From NCBI GenBank assembly GCA_020348925.1, contig CP070758.1:3681059-3702587 (forward strand): a stretch of DNA of 21,529 nt, read 5' to 3'. A program made the translations under genes and the position numbers. Every line of letters starts with the position of its first letter. Position 1 is the first letter of the stretch. Positions 2,340-7,996 of this stretch are shown piece after piece. The DNA is from Gemmatimonadota bacterium. GTDB taxonomy: Bacteria > JBHIER01 > G020348925. The notes beneath the pieces were generated by a model. The model ran no database searches and was not told the DNA's origin. It saw only the letters and a program-made list of their open reading frames with translations.

Positions 2340-4145
2340 TCATTTCATCAATACCATCCGCTTCGTTGCTGTGAATTCATCCGTTGAGAGTCGATAAAAA
2401 TAGACCCCACTGGGTGCACTCTTGCCAAACGCATCCCTCCCGTCCCAGGACACTTCATAAGAACCAGGGTTCCGAATATCATCGACCAGTGTTCTCACAC
2501 CTTGCCCCAATACATTGTAAATCTTCAAAGTGACATGGAGGGGGGATTGATCACTGAAGACTGAATACTGAATACTCGTCGAAGGGTTGAAGGGATTGGG
2601 ATAATTCTGACTGAGCCTGTACTCGATCGGCATCTGCACTTCCTTGACCAGAGCCATAAACCTGACAAAGTCTTCAACAGGCAGATAAGGCTTCAACGAA
2701 TTCAGAAACGCAATCACTTCCGGGGTAATCCCGGGTCGAGCGGCGTCCGGTTCGCACTGGCCACTCCCCAGAATCACATTCACAATACCGAGAGCATCCA
2801 AGACGTTCACGATTCCGTCTCCACTGCAATCCGCCGCCCACAATTCATCCTCAGTCGGCGGATCTCCCACTCCCAGGACAATATTCACAACACCCAATAC
2901 ATCCAAAATATCGACAGCACAATCGGAGCTGACGTCCCCTCTCGTAAATTCTCCGAAGGAGACTGTCCCTCCTTCATGAAACACCAGAAGATCCCCGGTC
3001 TGAGCATTCACGAAGTCAACTTCACGAAAGAAAAGCTGCGTACTTCCACCAACAGGTGCCTCTTCACTGAGAGCGAATTGTACCTCGGCTACGGGTCCGA
3101 TCCCACATTCAATCGTGTTCCCGGAAATACGAAGGGTCAATAAACCAGGATTCGGAATATCCCAACCGAATTCACCGAAATTGATCGTCCTTGCTGTTGC
3201 CTCAATCCCGATGGGAGTCAAAAGGTCCTCATCATATCCCAATTCAAAGTAAGCACTATCCACAGAAACTTCAATCTTCGTTTGATTATCAACATTGATG
3301 AAAACAGTAGCCATGCCCCCCGGGGCAGTACAGATGTGCGAAGCAGTCACGATAGCCGTCTCGTTGTATAAGCTAAAGATGACGTGGGCGATATTGGTGT
3401 TATCGATGTACGGACCACGTTGAATATCACTATGTGCCGCATACGCCTCGAAGCGCTCGCTGCCGAAACCTTGGGCAAACAGTGGAATCAGGGAATTTGT
3501 GTGGTATCCTGAGTAATATCTGTAGCCCGGCATAACGCCGGCACCGTTATCCACGATTGGATTGAAGGTTGCCGGCGTACCCGAATCAGGCCCCAAGAGG
3601 TACCCGGTCTCATGGTCGCCAGTAACTATCACCAAAGCCTCCTCCCAATTACTGTTCGCCTCCACCCATTCGAGTACTGCCTCGAAGGCGTTATCAAAAT
3701 CGATCTGCTCCTCGATCATACGACCGAGCTGGTTGGCATGGTTGGCCCAGTCGACGGCACCACCCTCGATCATCAGGAAGAAACCGTCGGGATCGTTGTC
3801 AAGAACATTCAAAGCAGCTCTCGTCATCTCTTCCAGGGTTGGAACGGTCGAGATGAAGGGTTCAGTATACGGAGGTTGAGGATTGTTCGGGCCCGGACCG
3901 CCCGGTCGTGCCTGCTGCAATGTCAAACGTGTCTGGGCCGTGCCAAGAACACGGTCCGGTGTATGACCGTGGGCCAGAGCCTGGAACTCCTCCCGCGTCT
4001 GAATAAGAGTCCAGGGATCATCGATGCCGTCACCATCTCCATCACCACCTGCAACACCAGTTATGAGTTCCTCCCAGGTTGTCTGACCTCCGACGTACTC
4101 ATAATAAAAACTGCTGCTCAGAAGGTTACCCTCCTCATCATACAT
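2340..4145 (-). CDS. Alkaline phosphatase, C-terminal part with cohesin-like, dockerin and type IX sorting modules (downstream of in-frame TGA)
   Basis: This is the continuation, in the same frame, of the phosphatase that begins at 4697; only the TGA at 4160-4158 separates them. It would need readthrough, or re-initiation at the ATG at 4145, which has no good ribosome binding site. In this fragment's numbering, the phosphatase metal ligands are E127, D132 and H136 (EGGAVDWANHAN), D177 and H178 (VTGDHETG), and H215 (YHTNSLIP). Residues about 264-399 form a cohesin-like beta-sandwich (FELGYDEDLLTP, EEAPVGGSTQLFF, GGTVSFG). Residues 402-464 are a dockerin pair, and 511-601 a FlgD-like/T9SS sorting domain ending RMVLMK. 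All downstream motifs are intact, so the interruption is recent, recoded or a sequencing error. The full-length product would be about 785 residues, exported and surface-bound. Loss of activity is not established. Confidence 0.85.
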   Translation of the reverse strand: MYDEEGNLLSSSFYYEYVGGQTTWEELITGVAGGDGDGDGIDDPWTLIQTREEFQALAHGHTPDRVLGTAQTRLTLQQARPGGPGPNNPQPPYTEPFISTVPTLEEMTRAALNVLDNDPDGFFLMIEGGAVDWANHANQLGRMIEEQIDFDNAFEAVLEWVEANSNWEEALVIVTGDHETGYLLGPDSGTPATFNPIVDNGAGVMPGYRYYSGYHTNSLIPLFAQGFGSERFEAYAAHSDIQRGPYIDNTNIAHVIFSLYNETAIVTASHICTAPGGMATVFINVDNQTKIEVSVDSAYFELGYDEDLLTPIGIEATARTINFGEFGWDIPNPGLLTLRISGNTIECGIGPVAEVQFALSEEAPVGGSTQLFFREVDFVNAQTGDLLVFHEGGTVSFGEFTRGDVSSDCAVDILDVLGVVNIVLGVGDPPTEDELWAADCSGDGIVNVLDALGIVNVILGSGQCEPDAARPGITPEVIAFLNSLKPYLPVEDFVRFMALVKEVQMPIEYRLSQNYPNPFNPSTSIQYSVFSDQSPLHVTLKIYNVLGQGVRTLVDDIRNPGSYEVSWDGRDAFGKSAPSGVYFYRLSTDEFTATKRMVLMK

Positions 4146-4157
4146 CGGGTGCCCAGC

Positions 4158-4160
4158 TCA
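4158..4160 (-). other. In-frame TGA inside alkaline phosphatase
   Basis: The codons around it read GAC GTC ATC ATG TGA GCT GGG CAC CCG ATG. The stop sits where family members have glycine in the D-V-I-M-G-x-G stretch, so GGA to TGA, a single G-to-T change, explains it. The frame is unbroken on both sides. A 6-bp stem capped by a GUAA tetraloop lies in the mRNA at 4135-4120, with its loop 28-31 nt past the UGA. Confidence 0.9.
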
Positions 4161-4697
4161 CATGATGACGTCAACAGCGCTGTCGTAAACCATTTCCCTG
4201 GCAATTTGAGTGTAGTTATTACGGGAGCGGTTATGGGCAACAAAACAGGCAGGAGTGCCTTGTGACCACTGGACACTCGTAATCACCCCGGTAGCCATGC
4301 CCAGGGCTTCTGCTCGTTCGATCACATGCTCCAACGGCTGCATTCCCGGACCGAAACAAATCGCTCCTTGATACGTCTTCACACCTGTCGACATGGCCGT
4401 TGCAGCGGCTGCAGAGTCTGTGTAGCGCGAAAGGACATAGTTGAAATCGCTCCAAGCCTGATCCGTATCATAGCTTCCCAACCACATAAAGGTGCTCATG
4501 GGGTAAGCACTATTCCAGGATTCATACTCTCTGACGATGCCTGTCCAGTACCGAGTGGCCGTAATCTGGTTGTATCCCCATCCATCCGCAATCATGACGA
4601 TGACATGCTTGACTCCGGCATGGGCGATGCCACACAACAGAAGGATGAGGATAAGGTCTAACAAACACAATCCACTTTTAAAGAGTATTCTTCTCAT
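4158..4697 (-). CDS. Alkaline phosphatase, N-terminal part (ends at premature TGA)
   Basis: 179 residues from the ATG at 4697, which is preceded by GAAGGA at 9 nt; a GTG two codons earlier is too close to that site. The signal peptide is about residues 1-27 (Leu-rich core, GIAHA cleavage region). The alkaline phosphatase signature follows: VIVMIADGWGYNQ with the metal ligand D38, and RYTDSAAAATAMSTG with the phosphorylated serine S95. The next block (VITSVQWSQGTPACFVAHNR) is the conserved 'T..hATPA.f.aH...R' region. The chain stops at DVIM-TGA, before the rest of the metal site, so this fragment alone cannot be an active phosphomonoesterase. It starts 41 bp (from the ATG) after the DUF362 gene ends, probably in the same transcript. 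Confidence 0.85.
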   Translation of the reverse strand: MRRILFKSGLCLLDLILILLLCGIAHAGVKHVIVMIADGWGYNQITATRYWTGIVREYESWNSAYPMSTFMWLGSYDTDQAWSDFNYVLSRYTDSAAAATAMSTGVKTYQGAICFGPGMQPLEHVIERAEALGMATGVITSVQWSQGTPACFVAHNRSRNNYTQIAREMVYDSAVDVIM

Positions 4698-4738
4698 AGG
4701 CACAGATCCTTCTCAAGGTCAGAAAGAGAGATCCAGAG

Positions 4739-7090
4739 CTATTTCAGCAGGAGCATTCTTCTGGTCGCTGTGAAATCACCCACAGTGAGACGGTAAAAAT
4801 AGATCCCGCTGGGCGCACTGACGCCCAACGCATCCTCCACGTCCCAGGTCACAGTATACTGTCCGGGATTTTGAAGCTCATCCACCAGGGTTCGAATCTC
4901 CTGTCCCAGGCTATTGTAAATTTTCAAGCTGACGTGCGGGAGGGACAGCTCACTGACCACCGAATACTGAATAGTGGTTACAGGATTGAAGGGATTCGGG
5001 AAATTTTGCGACAGAAGAAACTGATCCGGAATCTGCAATCCTTTGACCATGGCCATAAAGCGTGCATACTCTTCAGGAGGAAGATACTGCTGCAGCGATT
5101 TCAAAAACGCTCTCACCTCCGGTGTGACTTTGGGTCTGCCTGCCTCCGGTGCACACTGTCCGATCCCCAGAATCACGTTCACAATCCCCAGGGCATCAAG
5201 GACGTTGACACCTCCGTCGCCGTTGCAATCGGCCCGCTCCAAAGGGGCACCGGCCAGGGGATGGCTGCCTAATATGTGATTCACCACCGCCAGCACATCC
5301 AGGACGTCGCTGCCGCCCTCGCAATTGATGTCTCCTCTGTCAACCTCGATCTGGTCAGGATTGAAGGTTTCCGGGCAATTGTCCTCGTCACACGTATTAG
5401 TCGAATACCCCGGATCGCCGTATCCGTCGTCATCGGTATCGGTGCACTGATCGCATGCATCGCCAGTACCATCGTAGTCACCATCGGCCTGATCCGGATT
5501 GAAGTCATCCTGACAATTATCGCAGACATCGCCAATTTCATCGCCATCCCCATCATCCTGCTCAGGGTTGTAGTCATCGGGACAGTTATCGTTCCAATCG
5601 GCGATCCCGTCGTCATCCACATCCCCGCGTTCCAATTCGACTCGGGTACAATTCAGGTATTGGTCATAGGCGAAAAGGGTGATCTGATGGTTCACCGGTT
5701 CAACAGGACCAATGGAGAGCGCAATGTCATCGAAGTCCTGGATGACGATTTCCATGAGGCGTACTCCGTCGATGGCCACTTCGAGTTTGGCCACTTCTTC
5801 GGTCTCGGTCAATCTCAGATACAACATATCGCCCTCTATGGCTGCATAATCGATTTGGAATTCCGGTGGGGTGTCATCGTAAAACTTGGAATATGTCCCG
5901 TAGGAACAGCTTTCAAAATCCTCCTTGACCTCATCGACCATGACGCCTTCGACCCTGATGAGCTCGGCGTGAGCGCAGCCGGCATGGTCGTTGTGGAGAT
6001 AGGTCAGGTGGGGCACGTTCAAAGGATCATGACGCATGATGAGGGCCGCTATGGCATCCACGGCCACGGCATCCCGGCCGGCCAGAACGAGTCTCATGTT
6101 CTTCTGGTCATGCTCGATGTTCGGAGACTGATATCCTGGTCCACAGTTGCACAGCGGGCCGTGCTGCAGTCCCTGGAGGCCGTCCATGATCACATAGTCG
6201 ATGGGCCTGCACAGGAAGAAGTCGTGGAGCCATTGCTGCAGGTAGGTATACTGGTGATCGATCCCCCAGTCCCTTTGCGTCGGGTATTGTCCGCCGAAGT
6301 TCCCGTAAATGCTGGCCGGTGTGGCACCGATGCCCACATTCTTTATGGCCCCGGTAACGCCGCCTATATAATGATTTTTCAACACAGGCAGGCAGATGAG
6401 AACGTCCGCTTCGTAGTAGAGTCTGTTGAGATAGATGGCCCTCGTTCGGTTCGGTTTCCGATTGTCGGGGTAGAGAGCCAGGGAATCGGGCAGCTCCACG
6501 GCGGCCAGTTTGTCGGAATCGTATTCCCGCCATCCGCCACTCGAGTCCTCGATACAGATGAAGTCGTCCGCATCTTGAATTCTCTGCGGCGTATAGCCCA
6601 GGGCTTGAAAATTGTCCCGGGTCCAGCCCACACCGGAACCTTCCATGACGTAGATTTCTCCGCTGGGATTGCGCTCGCGGACGAGCTCGGCAACCGCTTT
6701 GACGAACCGGTAATCTGTGGTTACTCCGTTGACCTTTTGAGCCAAGTCTCTCCCCTGCTGTGACATGTCGTACGGCGAAATGAGATTCGGCTTGAGAACA
6801 ACCACATCACCGTCCTGAATGAGCGTTTCAAATCCACCCGCTTTGTCGACGGCGTCTTCAATCATGGCCCTGATCTCATCGTACCCAATGTCCTGAGCAT
6901 CATCCTGGGAAGACCGGACGATACCCACCGTGGATTGCGGGAGAACGACCTGTTTTTCCGGGAGCCGAACCGTCAACGGTATGCGGACCAAAGCATCATC
7001 GATGCTGGCGTTGCCCTGAAACAGGAAGGATGCCATCATCAACGTCAGGATGATGCCCAAAAAACCCTTTTGCGGCGCAGAGAGTTTCAT
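4739..7090 (-). CDS. Secreted DUF362 protein with thrombospondin-3, dockerin and type IX sorting modules
   Basis: 783 residues, ATG start with a perfect AGGAGG at 6 nt. A signal peptide covers about 1-29. The DUF362 domain runs about 52-400, shown by [38 protein letters not shown] (conserved K-N-H), [10 protein letters not shown] and [16 protein letters not shown] beta-rich linker follows (about 405-487), then Asp-rich thrombospondin type-3 Ca-binding repeats at about 489-580 ([35 protein letters not shown]). A dockerin-like pair sits at 586-646 and a FlgD-like/T9SS C-terminal sorting domain at about 692-783 ending RRMLLLK. DUF362 proteins have no firmly established general activity and many are cytoplasmic and ferredoxin-linked; an exported, surface-anchored version is notable. 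The start is 18 bp after the permease stop, so the two are very probably cotranscribed. Confidence 0.88.
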
Positions 7091-7108: not shown

Positions 7109-7996
7109 TTAGTGGTACAACACACCTGCGATAATCGAATACCCAATCAGACTGAAAATATAGAGAACGATAAAGAGCGGTCGTAACACGGTGGCCAGGG
7201 CCATCAGCGGGGTCACGCGGGTTGCCGGGCCGACGATGAAAAAGGTCAGAGCAGAGCCCTTGCTCATCCCTTTGAGCATCATGGAGCGCACCAGGGGGAT
7301 TGTTCCTCCACCACAAGGGTAGAGCGGCACCCCGAGCAGAGCGGCCATCAGCACCGACGAGGTCTGCCCCGGCTTAAAAAGAGCCGTAAGATATTTGCCG
7401 GGCACATACACCTCAACCAGGGACCCCAACAGAATTCCGATAACCATGTAAAATCCTATAAATTGCAAACTGTTCCAGACGCTCAGGAGAAATTTTTTCG
7501 GCTCCAATCTCTTGGGCGAACCCCCTCTGCTCTCACTCGGATCCGGATGTTTCGAAAATATGCCAGGATTCAGAATCCACTTCTGCGGAAGCCGCAGGAG
7601 GAAGAGACCCAGAAGAATCCCAAGTACGAGTACCGCACCCGCCCTGATCGCCGCCATCTCCGGGCCGATCCAGAACCAGGTCATGAGAAAAAGCTGGGGA
7701 TTCATCAATGATGAAACCGCCAAAAACGTAACCAGAGGCGGCAGAGGAAATCCTGCCTGAAAAAAAGTGATAACCACCGGCACTGTTCCGTAGGTGCATA
7801 ACGGCGAAATCATGCCCAAAACGGCACACACCACTATCGATACGAGACGGAATTTTGTGCTTCCTTTCGAGATCCATCCTTTCCACGGAACCAGTCTCAA
7901 GATTTCTCCCAAAACGAGGCCCGCCAGAACGTATGGGAACAGTCCAAAGACAGTCCGCCCGGATATCTGCAAGACGGCTACGATCTGTTCTTCCAT
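7109..7996 (-). CDS. Inner-membrane permease, DUF318/ArsP (UPF0718) family
   Basis: 295 residues and strongly hydrophobic, with about eight predicted membrane segments in two halves separated by a polar loop at about 140-168 (HPDPSESRGGSPKRLEPKK). Each half carries the family's Cys-Gly-Pro signature: SPLCTYGTVPV (64-74, C67) and LYPCGGGTIPLV (225-236, C228), matching the 'P.C.(C/Y)G..P' pattern of this permease family. Known members export trivalent organoarsenicals, but many have no known substrate and no arsenic genes lie nearby, so I do not assign one. The ATG start is supported by a long hydrophobic N-terminal helix. It is the first gene of the 7996-to-1 run and has a potentially structured leader immediately before its start codon. 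Confidence 0.85.
   Translation of the reverse strand: MEEQIVAVLQISGRTVFGLFPYVLAGLVLGEILRLVPWKGWISKGSTKFRLVSIVVCAVLGMISPLCTYGTVPVVITFFQAGFPLPPLVTFLAVSSLMNPQLFLMTWFWIGPEMAAIRAGAVLVLGILLGLFLLRLPQKWILNPGIFSKHPDPSESRGGSPKRLEPKKFLLSVWNSLQFIGFYMVIGILLGSLVEVYVPGKYLTALFKPGQTSSVLMAALLGVPLYPCGGGTIPLVRSMMLKGMSKGSALTFFIVGPATRVTPLMALATVLRPLFIVLYIFSLIGYSIIAGVLYH

Follow-up and report, generated by a model that had tools for sequence, protein, structure and literature searches.

Cohesin and dockerin modules throughout a Gemmatimonadota genome: probable parts of a non-cellulosomal assembly linked to type IX secretion

This report concerns three adjoining genes of a Gemmatimonadota bacterium (assembly GCA_020348925.1) whose products carry cohesin and dockerin modules, and the genome-wide set of such modules to which they belong. 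The genes lie in a stretch of 21,529 nucleotides (contig CP070758.1, positions 3,681,059 to 3,702,587; hereafter the window), which starts immediately after a gap of 100 N (genome 3680959-3681058). According to the list of open reading frames (ORFs), all are on the minus strand and encode a DUF362 protein (7090-4739), an alkaline phosphatase (4703-2340, split) and an amidohydrolase (2264-540), each with an N-terminal signal peptide as read from the sequence. A preliminary description of this DNA gave its span as 2340-7090, which omits the amidohydrolase that it names (540-2264).

Family matches were judged by cut-offs of 22.9 bits for Dockerin_1 (PF00404), 24.1 bits for the Pfam Cohesin family (PF00963) and 23 bits for the type A sorting domain of the type IX secretion system (T9SS; TIGR04183). 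The DUF362 protein (783 residues, 4742-7090; PF04015, E 1.2e-24) consists of the signal peptide, the DUF362 domain (6044-6802), TSP3-like calcium repeats (5342-5626), a dockerin (residues 584-640, 5171-5341; PF00404 31.5 bits at 586-638, with both 12-residue calcium loops aligned), a helical linker and a T9SS type A sorting domain (4742-5008; 32.7 bits). Directly upstream of its gene, on the same strand, a permease (7109-7996) resembles Cu/Zn or SaoE-type efflux transporters at scores below the NCBIfam cut-offs. The phosphatase is split between two ORFs that share a reading frame (4158-4703 and 2340-4145). The former encodes the signal peptide and the beginning of the alkaline phosphatase domain (PF00245, E 5.1e-26), while the latter, which as written has no signal peptide, carries the remainder of the catalytic domain (fragment residues 1-261, 3363-4145; PF00245, E 4.9e-24), a cohesin (residues 262-399, 2949-3362; assigned by a genome-specific profile and by predicted fold), a dockerin directly after it (residues 402-464, 2754-2942; 28.2 bits at 403-456; nearest PDB chain 4dh2_B, E 1.6e-5), a conserved helical linker of about 48 residues (2610-2753) and a T9SS type A sorting domain (2343-2609; 36.4 bits). 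In the amidohydrolase (574 residues, 540-2264; PF01979, E 2.6e-22; PF00526, E 1.4e-17) the dockerin directly follows the signal peptide (residues 32-95, 1980-2171; 40.3 bits at 33-88, and 44.5 bits in the genome search), with Cys-rich repeats (1647-1976) and the amidohydrolase domain (543-1628) after it; family scans of the window proteins gave no match to a T9SS sorting domain in this protein. A third amidohydrolase with an N-terminal dockerin may be represented by a fragment beside a contig gap elsewhere in the genome (locus L084).

The beta-sandwich of the phosphatase is a cohesin, and all three dockerins are genuine Dockerin_1 modules. Against the Pfam Cohesin family the sandwich scores 19.3 bits (E 0.0014), below the cut-off, so that it would escape notice in a family scan by itself. 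With a profile of the same genome's other cohesins, most of which are over Pfam's cut-off, it scores 84.1 bits (E 3.8e-25), and in a genome search with profile A2, which contains the module itself, 98.5 bits (E 9.2e-28). Compared with the PDB, profile A2 matched cohesins up to E 9e-13, the cohesin of Archaeoglobus fulgidus (2xdh) at E 2.3e-12. AlphaFold2 predicts residues 262-399 to be a beta-sandwich, with a predicted local distance difference test (pLDDT) of about 90-98 along most of its length. The model superimposes on solved cohesins with Z scores of 17-20 and root-mean-square deviations (rmsd) of mostly 1.6-2.0 over about 130 residues; the best fold matches include 6kgf_A (Z 20.1, rmsd 1.7, 133 residues) and 2xdh (Z 17.9), and all 50 matches listed are cohesin entries. 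The six calcium loops of the three dockerins follow an Asp/Asn pattern at positions 1, 3, 5, 9 and 12; three depart from it at one position (Ser at position 3 in both loops of the phosphatase dockerin, and Glu at position 5 in the first loop of the DUF362 protein). The modules noted in the preliminary description are thus borne out: dockerin-like pairs in three adjacent exported proteins, sorting domains on two of them, and a cohesin-like sandwich, placed by eye at nearly its exact limits (264-399), directly before the phosphatase's own dockerin. Membership of the sandwich in a different family, which it had named as a refutation, is not seen, since sequence profiles and fold both point to cohesins.

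The two phosphatase ORFs are parted by an in-frame TGA (4158-4160, in VDVIM*AGHPMY, where the asterisk marks the stop). A second phosphatase-amidohydrolase pair with the same modules, intact, occurs at 1255.4-1259.6 kb (locus L049, 3422-7619); its phosphatase has GGA at this position, and several phosphatases of other genomes have Gly there within the same motif (DVIMGAGHP and variants). The two pairs are 80-81% identical over aligned codons, with a ratio of non-synonymous to synonymous substitution rates (dN/dS) of about 0.16-0.19 and no frameshift seen, from which we conclude that the TGA is a recent nonsense mutation or a sequencing error. Selenocysteine, readthrough or recoding was rejected as a first reading in view of the GGA of the paralogue, the Gly of the relatives and the use of TGA as an ordinary stop here (it ends 49 of 172 complete module-bearing ORFs).

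The genome survey proposed in the preliminary description reveals many further modules. Pfam alone finds 81 cohesins in the genome, 73 of them over the cut-off, and the genome's own profile raises this to at least 150; dockerins and sorting domains likewise number at least 150 each, and the SprA translocon is matched at 708 bits. By comparison, 15 other genomes have 0-9 cohesins each (E<=1e-5), and at the same threshold the range in 82 genomes of the phylum of genome G002, whose locus carries the label candidate division KSB1, is 0-24 cohesins and 0-7 dockerins per genome. Across these 82, the numbers of the two modules co-vary once sorting-domain load and genome size have been controlled for (partial r 0.34, p 0.002).

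Protein architectures were read from 60 stretches picked around cohesins and dense dockerins. In the junction and layout tallies the phosphatase of the window enters twice, once as PHOS_C and once as L089; those of dockerin residues, sorting domains and the cohesin tree omit L089. Few layouts recur: a dockerin alone, a dockerin with a sorting domain, a cohesin with a sorting domain, a cohesin followed by a dockerin with or without a further cohesin or a sorting domain, and proteins with several cohesins, up to six. The multi-cohesin proteins, with 3-6 cohesins, include scaffoldin-like layouts (CCCCCCT, CCCCT, CCCT and CCCD, where C is a cohesin, D a dockerin and T a sorting domain), and in seven that were scanned Pfam finds domains of the Ig-like and similar kinds but nothing catalytic. 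One locus (L073, 4330001-4346000) is a scaffoldin-like cluster, where a protein with six cohesins, Ig-like domains and a sorting domain, without any Pfam hit to a catalytic domain at E<=1e-4, stands beside two proteins of three cohesins and a dockerin. Sorting domains are unevenly distributed, since they end 23 of 27 cohesin-only proteins but only 27 of 86 dockerin-only proteins (Fisher p 1e-6); in 51 of the 59 dockerin-only proteins that have none, 26 or fewer residues follow the dockerin.

Spacing between modules is also regular. The linker from dockerin to sorting domain measures 47-49 residues in 34 of 36 junctions of the fetched loci, the gap from cohesin to dockerin is 18-23 residues between profile ends in half of the junctions (19 of 38), and that from cohesin to sorting domain is typically 27-28 residues. 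Between dockerin and sorting domain lies a helical linker of about 49 residues with the consensus TPEV.AFL.SL..YLP.E...FMA.VK, found in the window (2610-2753 and 5009-5170) and genome-wide. In 69 regions taken from dockerin proteins, the Pfam families that recur most are lectin-like, FG-GAP, Ig-like, PKD, TSP3 and beta-lactamase-like, and no glycoside hydrolase family is among the 25 most frequent of the 64 families there. Peptidases of the papain and M64 types occur with dockerins as well.

In a tree of 118 cohesins, modules of like context cluster together much more strongly than when the labels are shuffled. The cohesin of the phosphatase falls within a clade of seven (support 99/96), every member of which stands directly before a dockerin, a dyad whose hosts are alkaline phosphatases (two), beta-lactamase-like proteins (two), an M64 peptidase and two proteins lacking a catalytic Pfam match in the scanned part. 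As this clade sits on unrelated enzymes, and none of 28 related phosphatases of other genomes has a cohesin or dockerin, we interpret the dyad as a cohesin-dockerin cassette that has been added to different enzymes. In the phosphatase it may serve as an adaptor, with one socket and one plug, or as a dockerin with a companion module.

In solved complexes, dockerins touch cohesins with positions 10, 11, 14, 17 and 18. Among 122 dockerins of this genome, loop position 12 is Asp in all 122, in both repeats, and position 1 is Asp or Asn; 98 of the dockerins have a hydrophobic residue at each of positions 10, 11, 14 and 17 of both repeats, and position 18 is Asn in about 80% of both repeats. The predicted recognition surface, judged from these residues, thus appears two-fold symmetric, conserved and hydrophobic at the positions of cohesin contact. 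The three dockerins of the window resemble the genome-wide consensus at these five contact positions, so that nothing marks them as private partners.

Of several possible explanations for these data, we favour a genome-wide, non-cellulosomal cohesin-dockerin assembly system coupled to type IX secretion, to which we assign a probability of about 0.62. Its basis is the identity of the modules, their architecture, their numbers and the SprA translocon; that the modules bind one another, which of them match as pairs, and that they assemble at the cell surface is what we infer. Proteins with sorting domains, including the non-catalytic, scaffoldin-like ones with 3-6 cohesins, would be exported and displayed on the cell surface, where their cohesins would capture exported dockerin proteins. 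The amidohydrolase of the window would then be a dockerin client without a sorting domain, the DUF362 protein a dockerin protein with a sorting domain of its own, and an intact phosphatase, with a dyad, a sorting domain and a single cohesin, could be both captured and capturing, much like an adaptor. At the level of the genome such a non-cellulosomal assembly of exported proteins appears well supported, the binding itself being presumed. The general idea of the preliminary description is therefore retained, as the modules, the cargo, the sorting domains on two of the three proteins and the many additional modules of the genome all agree with it, but the role that it gave to the phosphatase finds little support.

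That role, in which the phosphatase gathers the DUF362 protein and the amidohydrolase as their scaffold, is quite unlikely. The genes are same-strand neighbours with short gaps (4739/4703 and 2340/2264), and the intact paralogous pair, with the same modules and its dN/dS of about 0.16-0.19, indicates that the pairing of phosphatase and amidohydrolase has been kept within this genome. However, the phosphatase has only one cohesin, of the dyad clade, its gene is interrupted by the nonsense codon, and better candidates with 3-6 cohesins are encoded elsewhere in the genome; furthermore, the stretch read around the paralogous pair contains no dockerin-bearing DUF362 gene, the three dockerins are consensus-like rather than private partners, and related phosphatases of other genomes (0 of 28) lack both modules. 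A different reading of the dyad is possible, if on balance improbable: a fixed two-module tail, in which the cohesin captures no dockerin and only stabilises or orients its own, the latter being the phosphatase's sole docking part. Such a companion is known in the Ig-like X module that accompanies the dockerin in type II and Ruminococcus flavefaciens X-dockerins. That all seven members of the clade stand directly before a dockerin in varied hosts implies that the pair travels as a unit, and the recurrent 18-23 residue gap, with cohesin strands ending at 137 and the dockerin starting at about 141 in the dyad model, would suit a rigid arrangement. Against this, the phosphatase module has a complete cohesin fold, and AlphaFold2 does not predict a fixed packing with confidence, as the predicted template modelling score (pTM) is 0.55 for residues 262-601 and 0.71 for residues 262-466, despite a mean pLDDT of 89-91.

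A purely structural use of the modules, with cohesins as Ig-like spacers of T9SS proteins and dockerins as calcium-clamped tails for folding or stability, neither engaging in specific recognition, is unlikely. It would fit the frequent position of cohesins immediately before the sorting domain, like that of other stalk domains, and the 82 genomes in which cohesins are common and dockerins few. It fits poorly with a cohesin-contact surface that is conserved, symmetric and hydrophobic, and these same features make less likely the alternative, already raised in the preliminary description, that the modules only bind calcium or support folding. Nor would a structural use lead one to expect the complementary distribution of modules and sorting domains, the multi-cohesin proteins without catalytic Pfam domains, or the co-variation of both modules beyond sorting-domain load.

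Several points weigh against the assembly system that we favour. The phosphatase gene of the window is interrupted; the layout statistics rest on chosen loci; and the counts include cut proteins, because the genome record strings contigs together across gaps of 100 N. The co-variation across the 82 genomes was computed without phylogenetic correction, and two of these genomes lack any dockerin at E<=1e-5 yet contain at least 5 cohesins, so that the cohesin fold can evidently persist without dockerins. Finally, most dockerin-only proteins have no sorting domain, and the favoured system does not account for their crossing of the outer membrane. For an exit by type II secretion, the matches to GspD and GspE are below their cut-offs and the frame of the secretin is broken; a secretin-like gene with an internal stop codon lies at 4469627-4470763. 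A further idea, though an improbable one, is that folded dockerin proteins without a sorting domain bind the cohesin of a carrier in the periplasm and cross the type IX channel together with it. Such hitch-hiking would account for the prevalence of sorting domains at the ends of cohesin-only proteins, and of the dockerin itself at the ends of dockerin-only ones; it draws on this distribution and on the export of folded cargo by T9SS (PMC9251779). Our literature search, judged by titles and the openings of abstracts, found no paper on co-export ('piggyback') through type IX secretion.

Should the modules bind, this lone lineage would possess a system that equals or exceeds the largest described cellulosome in size, is linked to type IX secretion and serves non-cellulosic enzymes and proteins of the cell surface. 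Three questions would then become testable: what purpose non-cellulosomal cohesins and dockerins have, whether a single shared dockerin surface suffices for some 150 cohesins, and by which route dockerin proteins that lack a sorting domain are released from the cell.

The system is reminiscent of cellulosomes in having cohesins and dockerins, multi-cohesin non-catalytic proteins and C-terminal dockerins, and also in its numbers, which are comparable to those of Pseudobacteroides cellulosolvens, called the most intricate cellulosome known in a 2017 paper (78 cohesins and 212 dockerin ORFs; PMC5590126), although the counting methods differ. It departs from them in that dockerins occur most often with lectin-like, FG-GAP, Ig-like, PKD, TSP3 and beta-lactamase-like families instead of glycoside hydrolases, and in that anchoring would be by T9SS sorting domains and not by SLH domains. 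Of two traits by which a cellulosome is recognised, dockerin cargo dominated by plant-polysaccharide enzymes was not seen among the 25 most frequent families, while a non-catalytic multi-cohesin scaffoldin is present elsewhere in the genome, outside the window. Taken as T9SS type A cargo on the strength of TIGR04183 together with SprA, the phosphatase and the DUF362 protein qualify and the amidohydrolase does not. With respect to the dyad of an Ig-like X module packed on a dockerin, what was seen here is a module in front of every dockerin of this type, with the fold of a cohesin, and a predicted packing of low confidence (pTM 0.71).

A precedent for such anchoring is Candidatus Stygibacter (Cloacimonadota), for which a cellulosome-like complex of a type-IX-anchored scaffoldin and dockerin enzymes has been proposed (PMC8542988). 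Common to both are a tandem-cohesin scaffoldin anchored by a conserved C-terminal domain, exported dockerin enzymes and an inferred assembly at the surface, but Ca. Stygibacter has one scaffoldin of 3,755 residues with carbohydrate-binding modules and a few peptidases or glycosidases, whereas here there are many small carriers, at least 150 cohesins, non-cellulosic cargo and cohesin-dockerin dyads. The A. fulgidus cohesin (2XDH) is alike in sequence, fold and non-cellulosomal setting, but is archaeal and has no T9SS; practical use has been made of a high-affinity cohesin-dockerin pair from this archaeon (PMC9705933). Anaerobic methanotrophic (ANME) archaea encode proteins of one dockerin and up to five cohesins (PMC9012536) and share with the present system the combination of one dockerin with several cohesins, as well as non-cellulosic cargo, although they too are archaeal. 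A type-IX-anchored cohesin scaffold and multi-cohesin archaeal versions have thus already been proposed, in Ca. Stygibacter and ANME respectively; what is new here is the scale, the non-cellulosic cargo and the dyad cassette.

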